Positions 53,359-57,504 of a stretch of DNA of 64,000 bases are shown in pieces. The stretch lies in assembly GCF_900167535.1 (NCBI RefSeq), contig NZ_FUYE01000013.1:1-64000 (forward strand), read 5' to 3'. The number at the start of each line of letters is the position of its first letter. Position 1 is the stretch's first letter. The DNA is from Prosthecobacter debontii. Its GTDB lineage: Bacteria; Verrucomicrobiota; Verrucomicrobiia; Verrucomicrobiales; Verrucomicrobiaceae. The notes under the pieces are model-generated. The model saw only the letters and a list, made by a program, of their open reading frames with translations, ran no database searches and was not told the DNA's origin. A program made the position numbers and the translations under genes.

Positions 53359-54618
53359 TCAAGCGGCGAGTTCTTCCCGTTGCCGCCACCGCTCTTCATG
53401 TTGGGTGGCGCGTTGAAAAAAATCGTCGGCCTCCTGAGTGTTTTGGTTTGGGTCGAGCGGGAGCCGCATCGTTAGCTCCAGCCCTTGAGGTTCCAAGCGC
53501 TTGGCTTCGATGCTGCCGCCGTGGAGATGCAGCGTGACGTAGCAGGCCATCATATTGACGCCGAAGTCATCGGGCTTGCGGCTGCGGGTGAAAAACGGAT
53601 CGAAGAGATTGGCAGCTCGATCCTGAGCGCCCCAGGCCCCATTGTCGGTGAGGACCATCACGGCCTGTTCTTGTCCGGTCGCATCTCTCTGCATGGTGGC
53701 CCGGATACGCACATAATCGCCCGGGTGCAGATGGGTGATCTCCTCGATCAAAAGCAGGCGCCAGAGTTGGCGGAAGCGATCACCATGCACCAGCAACGCT
53801 GGCAGGGTCGGCGAGACATTGTATTCCACGCGAATGTTTCTCTCCTGGAAGTGGGCGAGATAGGCGCTGATGCTCTCCTCCAGTAAAGTGCCCAGATGGA
53901 TGCTATCTTTCCGTTCCAGCTTCCGGGAATGCGAAGCGTGGGCCAAATGATTCAACAGGGTCTGAATGCGCTCGATCTGGGCTTGGGCCTGATGTTGCGT
54001 TTCGACCCAAAAGTTGGCATCCCGAGGCGGTCGTCCTTCGATCTCCTCCATGAGTTTCATGGGCGCGAGGTCGATGAAGGCACGCACCACGGTGAGAGCG
54101 TTACGCAGGTGATGATTCAGCCCTTCCGCCATGATCCCCATGCCTGCCACGCGGTCGGCCATGAGGGTGCTGCGGATGTTTTCGGCATTCTCCGTGAGCA
54201 GGGTTTCACGCTCCATCAGCGTGGCGTAGTATTCCATGCCCTGTCGGAGGACTGATGCCAGTTGCTCAGGATCCAGCGGCTTATGAAGATAGCGATAGGC
54301 GCGGCCTTCATTCACGGCTTTCACTGCGGTCTGATAGTCTGTGAAGGCCGTGACTAAGATGCGCACCAGATTGGGATGCAGACGGCGTGCACGGTCCATC
54401 AATTCCACACCGCTTTCCCCCGGCATGCGCTGATCCGTGAGTAAGATGCCGATTTGATGGCCATACGCTTCCAGAATGCGATAGCCTTCCGCCGCATTGG
54501 TGGCCGTGTGGATGATGAATTCATCCTCGAACATCTGACGGAAGTAGTGGAGGGCTTTCTCCTCATCGTCCACGTAGAGCACGTGGTATTTAGGGGGTGA
54601 CGTGGGGGGCGCATTCAT
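53359..54618 (-). CDS. Receiver-histidine-kinase hybrid, PhcR/PhcQ-like
   Basis: The 419-aa protein begins with a receiver domain (VLYVDDEEKALHYF; acidic pair 17-18, phospho-acceptor Asp62 in LLTDQRMPGESG, switch Lys in YLHKPLD). A kinase-like region follows, with HHLRN near 169 and a degenerate C-terminal ATPase (VLTDNGAWG...FDPFF). A receiver with a kinase-like C-terminus is the architecture of Ralstonia PhcR. It overlaps the upstream kinase by 4 bp, so the two are translationally coupled and probably form a phosphorelay. Confidence 0.85.
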   Translation of the reverse strand: MNAPPTSPPKYHVLYVDDEEKALHYFRQMFEDEFIIHTATNAAEGYRILEAYGHQIGILLTDQRMPGESGVELMDRARRLHPNLVRILVTAFTDYQTAVKAVNEGRAYRYLHKPLDPEQLASVLRQGMEYYATLMERETLLTENAENIRSTLMADRVAGMGIMAEGLNHHLRNALTVVRAFIDLAPMKLMEEIEGRPPRDANFWVETQHQAQAQIERIQTLLNHLAHASHSRKLERKDSIHLGTLLEESISAYLAHFQERNIRVEYNVSPTLPALLVHGDRFRQLWRLLLIEEITHLHPGDYVRIRATMQRDATGQEQAVMVLTDNGAWGAQDRAANLFDPFFTRSRKPDDFGVNMMACYVTLHLHGGSIEAKRLEPQGLELTMRLPLDPNQNTQEADDFFQRATQHEERWRQREELAA

Positions 54619-56102
54619 ACGGCAGCAGGGGCGGCAGCGGGTTTGAAGCGAAGGGTAAACTCAGTGAACATGCCAGCGCGGCTGGCGGCGGTGATCGTCC
54701 CACCCATCCCCTGCATCATGCGGTAGCAGAGGCTTAAGCCGAGGCCCATGCCCTGGCCGACTTCCTTGGTGGTGAAGAATGGGTCAAAGATACGTTGGAG
54801 ATGGTCTTCCGGGATGCCCGAGCCATTGTCGCGGATGCTGAGCAGGAGGTCATCCCCATCCCGTGTCGCCCGCAGCGTGATCTCCGGAGACTCCTGGCCT
54901 TCCATGGCATCCAGGCTGTTTTGCAGCAGATTCAAGAGGATCTGGATGATGTGATTTTCATCTCCCAGCGCCACAAAATCATCGGGAATGTCGGCCTGTA
55001 AAATCGCCCCTGCATCGCCCACTTGTTTGGCCATCAGACGGGAGGCCTTGGCCTGGGCGAGGTTCAGACTCACCGGGCAGGCCCCCTTATTCTCAGGATG
55101 GGCAAAGGTGCGCAGATCCGCCACGATGGAAGCCACCCGATCCACACCCTCGCTGATGTCATGGAGAATTTCGGTCATGGAATCGACCGTCTCATCGGGA
55201 AGCCCCCGAGTTTTCTTCTTTAAGACGTAGAGGGCGGATTTGACGAAGTTCAGCGGATTGTTGATCTCGTGAACGATGCCTGCGCTCAGGCGGCCGATGG
55301 AGGCCAGCTTTTCACTTTGATTGAGCTGCGCCTCGGTTTCACGCAGGCGTTGCAGGGTGCTGGAGAGTTCTTCGTTACGCCGGGTCAGTTCCTCGCGCTG
55401 AGCTTCTACCTTGCATCGGTTGACAAACTCACGCAGACGGATCGCATGATGCTGGCGGCTGCCGCAGTAGAGGATGACGCAGGTCAGCAGGATGAAGAGG
55501 GTGTTGTTGATGAACAGACCGATGGATCGGAGGTCGCCGTCAAACTTCAAGTTAGGCACTGTGGCGGCGAGATAAAAGGCCAGCACCAAGGCGACGGTGA
55601 ATCCGATCTCGCGGAAGGTCCAATGGAAGACGAAGGACGTGCCGATCAAGCACAGCATCAGCCCGGCATAGTAGCTGGAGGCCCCATCGCCACTGAAGTA
55701 GATCATCAGGCAGATGGCCAGAGCTGGCAGCAAGGGCAGAATCACTGGATACACCCGATGAAAACGGGCCGCCCAGGGCCGATCCAGCGCTAAAAGTAGG
55801 GGAATACACAACGCGGAGCAGAACACCCGGAGGAGGAGGAAATCCCAAAACTGACTGGGATAAGCCAGCCAATCCAAGATCGCGCAGAAAGGCACGAGAA
55901 CCATCACGAACCAAGCGCCGAGCTTGGCATTTCGGAGATTGTGCTCTTGAATTTCACCTTCAAATCGGGCGGACTTTTCAGCGGCAACGAGGATTTTCGG
56001 ATCCACCTGCGGTGCTGCCTGCGGGGCCACCACCACGTGACGGCTCGCTGGCGGGAAGTGCAGCGGAGCCGTGTTCGGGGGGTTACTGGCCAGGGCGATC
56101 AC
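54615..56102 (-). CDS. Six-helix membrane histidine kinase, PhcS-like
   Basis: The 495-aa kinase has about six N-terminal helices (residues about 62-215) with no large periplasmic loop, suited to sensing a hydrophobic signal. A coiled segment ([18 protein letters not shown]) leads to HisKA with His278 in [13 protein letters not shown], then a full HATPase ([45 protein letters not shown]). The start is GTG, about 13 nt after the predicted transcription start. It lies downstream of a methyltransferase gene and is coupled to a receiver-kinase. Confidence 0.9.
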
Positions 56103-56106
56103 GATT

Positions 56107-56128
56107 GTATAATTTATGTAAATTATAC
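56107..56128. promoter_or_regulatory. Perfect palindrome overlapping the histidine-kinase promoter
   Basis: GTATAATTTA and TAAATTATAC form a perfect 10-bp inverted repeat around TG. It covers the predicted -10 (56122-56127) and transcription start, an arrangement expected for a repressor operator. Confidence 0.6.
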
Positions 56129-56149
56129 TGAGTCGAGAAAATGTGGCAA
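56122..56149 (-). promoter_or_regulatory. Sigma-70-type promoter of the kinase-receiver pair
   Basis: On the minus strand TTGCCA (56149-56144) and a consensus TATAAT (56127-56122) are separated by 16 bp. The predicted start site near 56115 leaves only about a 13-nt leader before the GTG codon. Confidence 0.65.
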
Positions 56150-56263
56150 CCCTTTCTTTTAAGGAGGCTCAATTCGTTTTCAAACTTGATAAGAACGGGC
56201 ATTTTGCATGAAAAAGGCCTCCAAGCCGCTGCCTTTAAAAAGCCTAGCCCCCCTGCAGCGTCT

Positions 56264-57223
56264 TTAGCAGCGGATGTGTAAGAAATAGTTTACCCCTTCC
56301 GCTTCCCACTGCACTTCGGTTTGATCCGGGGCTGCGCCTGCACGTTCCGCTAGAGCGAGCAGAGTTTCCTGGCTACGATGAACGAGTTGCCAGCGCCCAA
56401 GAAGCTCCATGTAATCCCGGCTGGGATTGAAGTCGGAGAAATTTCCCACCACGACTTCGCCGCCAGGTTGGGTCACGCTCATCATGGCTTTCAGCACATG
56501 AATGAAAAGCCGATCGCTCAAGTAGTCAAAGAGACCGGCGGACCAGGTCAGGTGATAACCCCGGGTCGGCACGAAACGCAGGACATTGCGGTGGTGAAAA
56601 CGCAGGCGTTCCGTCCAGGGGGCGCAGAGACGTTGGGCGTAGGCAATGGCATGGGCATCCATGTCCACACAGTCCATTTGCAGGTTTGCCTGCGGATGGT
56701 TGAGGTAAAACTCATGCACATCCCGGCTCGGGCCGCTGGCTACGTTGAGCACCTGCAGAGGTTCTGGACCGCTGTGTTGCTCCAGATGTTTCTGAAGCAG
56801 GTCCTGGAAATAACCCTTGCGATTTCTGACGGCCACCGGCGCGGCTTGGCTATGAAAGTAGAGATCCCAGAGGCGCAGGCTGGGATCGGAATGGGTCTTG
56901 CGGGTGTAGATGTGGTCGATGATCTCAAAGTCACCGCTGTAGCCATACTTCTGCGCGAGTGCCTCCGCCTGCATGGTGCCTTGCAGATGCTTCTCCGTTA
57001 CCTCCTGAATGTAGAGTGAGACTTCCTCCTGAGACAAACTGCCCCCGCGGACCGAATCTCCCAGATGACGGATTGCTCGATTGAGCACACTGTATTCCGG
57101 AGGCTGCGGCCCTCCCCGAATGATAAAATCATGCAGCAGCTCATCAAAGGAGCGAAGCAGGTGAGACTCCCGCCGATTCAAAACTGGCGATTCATCGGTG
57201 AGGATCGAGTAAGGCGGAGGCAT
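56264..57223 (-). CDS. SAM-dependent methyltransferase, PhcB-like
   Basis: The 319-aa protein has a helical N-terminal region of about 140 residues (YGYSGDFEIIDHIYTRK, AAPVAVRNRKGYFQDLL), then a class-I methyltransferase core with motif I LNVASGPSRDVHEF (about 159-172) and the acidic CVDMDAHAIAYA strand. This layout resembles the fatty-acid methyl ester synthase PhcB of Ralstonia. The co-oriented sensor kinase and receiver-kinase strengthen the link. Product and substrate remain inference. Confidence 0.65.
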   Translation of the reverse strand: MPPPYSILTDESPVLNRRESHLLRSFDELLHDFIIRGGPQPPEYSVLNRAIRHLGDSVRGGSLSQEEVSLYIQEVTEKHLQGTMQAEALAQKYGYSGDFEIIDHIYTRKTHSDPSLRLWDLYFHSQAAPVAVRNRKGYFQDLLQKHLEQHSGPEPLQVLNVASGPSRDVHEFYLNHPQANLQMDCVDMDAHAIAYAQRLCAPWTERLRFHHRNVLRFVPTRGYHLTWSAGLFDYLSDRLFIHVLKAMMSVTQPGGEVVVGNFSDFNPSRDYMELLGRWQLVHRSQETLLALAERAGAAPDQTEVQWEAEGVNYFLHIRC

Positions 57224-57249
57224 CTCGGGAGAATTTTAAAATATCACGC

Positions 57250-57267
57250 CCGCTTATTAATAAGCGG
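57250..57267. promoter_or_regulatory. Perfect palindrome upstream of the methyltransferase gene
   Basis: CCGCTTATT and AATAAGCGG form an 18-bp perfect palindrome 27 bp before the start codon. It is a plausible operator and differs from the palindrome in front of the kinase gene. It could also act as an RNA hairpin. Confidence 0.5.
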
Positions 57268-57504
57268 AGGTATTTTGTTAAAATAAACGAGATATTAAGC
57301 ATCGCAAAAGCCGAATTGGCTGGGCACGCTAACTTTGTTTCTGAAAAATTTAATTCATTCTAGTGAATCCAGAGAATGGGCTGGTTCAAACGGGGTGGAG
57401 GCGGGTGACGCGAAAAACCTTCCATTTTTGAGGCCAAACTCATTCGTGAGGGGTTGAGAAGGCGCTCATTTGAGAGTTTGTGGGAGGGGCTCTCCCGCTT
57501 GCTT

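Follow-up and report, generated by a model that had tools for sequence, protein, structure and literature searches.

Within a window of 64,000 nucleotides from Prosthecobacter debontii (the whole stretch of DNA analysed, which sets the coordinates given here), three neighbouring genes encode a methyltransferase (MT), a histidine kinase (HK) and a receiver/kinase-like response regulator (RR). In the quorum sensing of Ralstonia, PhcB makes the signal (3-hydroxy fatty-acid methyl esters), PhcS is the receptor and PhcR the regulator, and the initial annotation had proposed that the three window genes form a set of this kind. Our analysis favours a different wiring: HK and RR would constitute a second receptor module of the PhcS/PhcR type in a genome that carries a separate Phc-like set on another contig (C8), and both kinases would read an ester of the type made by the C8 enzyme. 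We assign this reading a probability of roughly 50%. The placement of HK and RR in the PhcS and PhcR types, and the exclusion of MT as the PhcB counterpart, follow from reciprocal profile searches of the whole genome.

To obtain reference sequences for PhcB, PhcS and PhcR, 300 Burkholderiales genomes were searched with an alignment of the MT family. Full-length MT matches with E-values of 1e-131 to 1e-144 came from seven genomes; downstream of each match lie genes for a kinase, a receiver-kinase and a receiver protein, in the order phcBSRQ. These operons represent Burkholderiales, and none is claimed as that of Ralstonia itself. Published landmarks are Arg22 of PhcB and the phosphorylated histidine of PhcS, located at position 230 in Ralstonia (PMC6989110, PMC11960443). 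In five of the seven operons Arg22 stands at exactly this position, and in the other two the open reading frames (ORFs) extend further N-terminally; the histidine of PhcS is residue 231 in three of the seven. A named operon of the phcBSRQ kind is present on a plasmid of Paraburkholderia graminis (its PhcB is 66.5% identical). Each window gene was tested against the seven operons and that of P. graminis, and the three profiles were run reciprocally against the Prosthecobacter genome. The curated families of Pfam and NCBIfam provided no PhcB-specific model.

Among 55 genomic matches to the PhcS profile, window HK ranked highest, at 290 bits with full-length coverage (columns 5-437 of 442), while the hybrid kinase encoded on C8 scored 191 bits for its core and 106 bits for its sensor. 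HK contains six hydrophobic helices (residues 61-77, 88-104, 120-136, 143-159, 166-182 and 194-210), after which follows the phosphorylation site HEINNP at His278, a site in common with PhcS. Sensor-only hidden Markov models (HMMs) were compared on the ORFs of about 115 loci: the window-type model recovered PhcS at E-values of 3e-14 to 3e-20, the PhcS model recovered the window type at 5e-24 to 2e-16, and both also matched hybrid kinases. The PhcS and window sensors each comprise six helices, give the same sub-threshold hint of the Pfam family MASE8, and have the invariant residues L76-D77, Y81-P82, R92, M133, S142 and G147-L148 in common. By these comparisons HK is of the PhcS type, with a sensor homologous to that of PhcS, as had been proposed.

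The PhcR profile gave 141 bits for the C8 regulator and 118 bits for window RR, followed by the core of window HK (92 bits). Only the C8 paralogue thus outscores RR in the genome. RR combines a receiver with a kinase domain, carries no DNA-binding domain and is, by this profile and domain content, of the PhcR type. PhcR and PhcQ likewise lack a DNA-binding site (PMC8578825). The receiver of RR retains Asp62 and Lys113. Its kinase-like C-terminus differs from PhcR in having lost the N-box Asn, with LLLIEEITHL in the box alignment where PhcR has Asn-Ala. Given this loss and the lack of a DNA-binding domain, the output of RR probably proceeds via protein contact.

The methyltransferase gave a different picture. 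With the PhcB profile, a gene on C8 scored 443 bits (columns 10-460) and window MT 66 bits (columns 218-437 only). In a tree of 61 catalytic domains, PhcB and the long Verrucomicrobial MTs formed one clade (support 99/97), and window MT fell into a separate deep clade (support 100/99, branch 2.67) together with short MTs of Bacteroidota, Desulfobacterota, Nitrospirota and others, which have about 40% identity to it and the same motifs. Forcing window MT together with PhcB cost 175 log units (approximately unbiased (AU) test, p = 5e-7). Window MT also lacks the N-terminal domain of PhcB, which has six strands in the long-form model. Profile score, tree and AU test thus reject the identification of window MT as PhcB; on this evidence it belongs to a PhcB-related but separate clade, and the counterpart of PhcB is the C8 gene, which has its own kinase and regulator. 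The clades of window MT and PhcB nonetheless share ancestry, as their profiles align over 277 columns (probability 100) and have the motifs GYxGD, NR, GLFDYL, NP and GVNxF in common. The PDB entry closest to the AlphaFold model of window MT (pLDDT 92) is 3ocj, a functionally uncharacterised protein from Bordetella parapertussis with the same fold and 18% identity (Z 20.8; 250 residues aligned at rmsd 4.5). The short-MT clade is loosely linked to signalling: in Desulfobacterota, Chlorobiota and Rhodothermota some of its members adjoin histidine kinases, and in a Syntrophaceae protein (L079:5964-8924, 987 aa) a short MT is fused to PAS-PAS-GGDEF.

Two further members of the MT family were encountered. 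In one genome (G015, L013:8399-10263) two MT-family genes adjoin each other; the first seems to carry a frameshift close to its end, and the fetched region contains no kinase that matches. On a plasmid of Enterobacter ludwigii (NZ_CP134637.1, 46740-47450), a type I polyketide synthase includes an MT-family domain 29% identical to window MT.

The C8 set encodes an MT of 483 aa, a hybrid kinase of 923 aa and a receiver-kinase of 421 aa, separated by gaps of 1 and 25 bp, and the gene order was the same in the family relatives inspected. Its MT possesses the N-terminal domain and is about 40% identical to PhcB over its length. The C8 and window proteins are paralogous in the kinase core (46% identity) and in RR (36% over full length). 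They differ in that the window kinase is not a hybrid, whereas the C8 kinase has an inserted kinase-receiver block that also distinguishes it from PhcS, and in that window MT is only 27-29% identical to the C8 MT, the similarity being confined to the catalytic domain. PhcQ, the receiver-only protein of the reference operons, is at neither locus: no further receiver gene follows RR in the window or the C8 set. Extra receiver proteins were found at loci L014-L016 of other families. The C8 set makes a stronger case for a Phc system than the window trio does.

A full-length PhcB-type gene is present in 38 of 68 genomes of the family (39 if one split over contigs is counted), and five longer variants with open frames of 686-696 aa occur besides in two other family genera (G520, G521, G522, G523 and G525). 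Across the phylum, 17 of 288 sampled genomes carry such a gene; these belong to several families of the class, plus one genome outside it. In six relatives (L129, L131, L132, L134, L135 and L136), the gene immediately upstream of the PhcB-type one encodes an outer-membrane transporter of the FadL family (Toluene_X; FadL/TodX). In rhizobia, long-chain N-acyl-homoserine lactone signals are taken up by FadL (PMC9938287), and a FadL neighbour would suit a long-chain hydrophobic signal. In four of the six relatives the FadL gene is itself preceded by a LuxR-type response regulator.

We also evaluated whether the window trio is a unit. Among the 68 family genomes, HK was found in 46, the short MT in 41 and both in 38, but the two genes were adjacent in only five of these 38 (the window genome, G471, G474, G504 and, at L019, G496), with a spacing of 139-285 bp and MT co-directional with HK-RR. 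In G475, MT adjoins the same antiporter gene and HK-RR is located on another contig. The HK-RR pair itself is conserved across the family. Unlike the reference operons, HK-RR has its own promoter-like site, located about 20 bp before the HK gene. This site matches the consensus at 10-11 of 12 positions in L188, L189, L190 and L192 and at 9 of 12 in L019; it persists in L192, where HK is not beside MT, and is present in G475 too. A conserved three-gene operon, as implied by the arrangement initially described, is thus rejected: the genes stand together in five close species only, and HK-RR carries a promoter-like site of its own.

In the mechanism that we favour, the PhcB-type enzyme of C8 would produce the methyl ester of a long-chain 3-hydroxy fatty acid, or a closely similar compound, which the C8 hybrid kinase and window HK would both read via their homologous six-helix sensors. 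Window HK would sense its hydrophobic ligand in the membrane, most likely either the ester that the C8 enzyme would make or something related produced by the short MT. It would then autophosphorylate at His278 and transfer the phosphoryl group to Asp62 in RR. Having lost the N-box, the kinase-like C-terminus of RR would serve as a protein-binding output instead of a kinase. The short MT would be a separately transcribed but functionally associated enzyme, possibly supplying the receptor HK with another, related ester.

Several points weigh against this proposal. The sequences establish the homology and domain content of the proteins, the order, conservation and co-occurrence of their genes and a conserved promoter-like site, from which substrate and ligand, the phosphotransfer, the output and a possible quorum response are inferred. 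HK shares no more than 31-35% identity with PhcS and could thus bind a different ligand, and the sensor comparison used PhcS as its one reference among six-helix quorum kinases, which also include LqsS and CqsS. Of the 38 family genomes that combine HK with the short MT, six have no PhcB type of the C8 kind, so dependence of HK on that enzyme is not universal. No counterpart of PhcA, the LysR regulator through which the Phc system acts, or other output gene was identified, although no PhcA-directed search was made and LysR proteins were too numerous for a family profile to single one out.

The same six genomes are also what would be expected if the trio were a self-contained second system, in which a methyl ester or methylated acid made by the short MT is sensed by HK-RR independently of C8. 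Among genomes of at least 90% completeness, the short MT occurs in 32 of the 35 that carry HK and in 1 of the 15 that do not (Fisher p = 1e-8), and the PhcB type in 30 of 35 and 3 of 15, respectively (p = 2e-5); the association of HK is thus somewhat tighter with the short MT, albeit with p-values that ignore shared descent, a reservation that applies equally where the co-occurrence supports the reading we favour. Self-containment would further agree with the adjacency and common direction of MT and HK-RR in five species, with the PhcB-family motifs kept by window MT, and with the short MTs of other phyla that adjoin kinases or, in one case, are fused to PAS-GGDEF. Most short MTs of other phyla, however, differ from that of the window in having no PhcS-type kinase nearby, and within the family HK occurs without MT in 8 of 46 genomes, the two genes adjoin in just 5 of 38, and the promoter-like site of HK-RR is conserved even where MT lies elsewhere. 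We consider independence from C8 rather doubtful and read HK and the short MT, from their distribution, as functionally associated without forming an operon.

Many ligands are served by multi-helix membrane sensors, and HK-RR might sense something unrelated, for example a lipid, the state of the membrane or an Lqs/Cqs-type ketone, the nearness of MT being accidental. The variable spacing between MT and HK and the mostly unlinked state of these genes in the family would fit, but an unrelated ligand is unlikely in view of the specific homology of the HK sensor to PhcS, with invariant residues in common, and of the Phc-like set carried by most of the same genomes. An aminotransferase-like synthase of the LqsA/CqsA kind was absent from the flanking genes examined; Enterovibrio kinases fetched as candidates for CqsS were not CqsS-like and were discarded. 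That the trio is nevertheless a true phcBSR operon, with MT, HK and RR as PhcB, PhcS and PhcR, could be argued from the order and architecture of the three proteins and from the types of HK and RR. We hold this to be very improbable: the PhcB profile favours C8 by 377 bits, MT lacks the N-terminal domain, and its grouping with PhcB, rejected above as a matter of descent, is contradicted by the AU test, to which are added the separate promoter-like site, the dispersal of the set in relatives and the lack of phcQ.

The initial annotation had also suggested ester-type quorum sensing in Verrucomicrobiota. This suggestion draws support from the C8 set and none from the window trio; ester-type signalling in the phylum is plausible from gene content, but wired differently from what had been proposed. 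A survey within Proteobacteria only reported that the phc gene cluster is restricted to Betaproteobacteria (PMC10653808). Our search of the literature, confined to open papers and leaving novelty unproven, retrieved nothing relevant on Phc or ester signalling in Verrucomicrobiota. PhcB-type MTs with PhcS/PhcR-type partners in several families and at least one further class of this phylum would move the signalling chemistry into another phylum, and offer for Prosthecobacter and its relatives a quorum-sensing candidate open to direct testing. As a tentative extension, which we consider rather improbable, Verrucomicrobiota may run a two-branch ester quorum-sensing network composed of the C8 set with its hybrid PhcS (and FadL in relatives) and a second PhcS/PhcR-type receptor pair fed by a second methyl ester from the separate clade of small MTs. 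Such a network, if true, would mean Phc-type signalling outside Proteobacteria together with a second family of signal synthases.

The three window ORFs were confirmed with the domains initially ascribed to them (Table 1). HK and RR overlap by 4 bp, and 161 bp separate the end of MT from HK. Orthologues in four further species are 73-88% identical and in unchanged order, indicating that the three are genuine genes and no chance ORFs. The organism belongs to Verrucomicrobiaceae, its closest named relatives being Prosthecobacter and Brevifollis.

Table 1. Genes and sequence elements of the window, and the Phc-like set on contig C8.
Feature	Position	Strand	Description
MT	57223-56264	-	319 aa; Pfam Methyltransf_25 above cut-off; short-form class I SAM-dependent methyltransferase
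HK	56102-54615	-	495 aa; HisKA + HATPase_c (Pfam); PhcS-type sensor histidine kinase
RR	54618-53359	-	419 aa; Response_reg + weak HisKA + HATPase_c (Pfam); PhcR-type response regulator
HK-RR promoter-like site	56122..56149	-	TTGCCA-N16-TATAAT; between MT and HK; 11/12 consensus
Palindrome	56108..56127		TATAATTTA-CA-TAAATTATA; perfect 9-bp arms; overlaps -10 box of HK-RR promoter-like site
Element upstream of MT	57234..57285	-	TATTTTAAYAAA-N28-ATATTTTAAAA; fixed spacing
C8 set	contig C8 178723-184238 (L018:4724-10239)		PhcB-type MT, hybrid PhcS-type kinase and PhcR-type protein in tandem

The palindrome at the HK-RR promoter-like site recurs with few changes in close relatives. Elsewhere in the genome the nearest copies have 3 mismatches, so that no regulon is indicated, and the palindrome is a possible candidate for an autoregulatory operator of HK-RR. 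The element upstream of MT was considered as an RNA element and rejected as such: single sequences fold well, but there was no consensus fold and no Rfam match. Its two boxes, with a variable hairpin between them, precede the short MT gene both here and in nine close relatives; in one of these relatives a box is variant.

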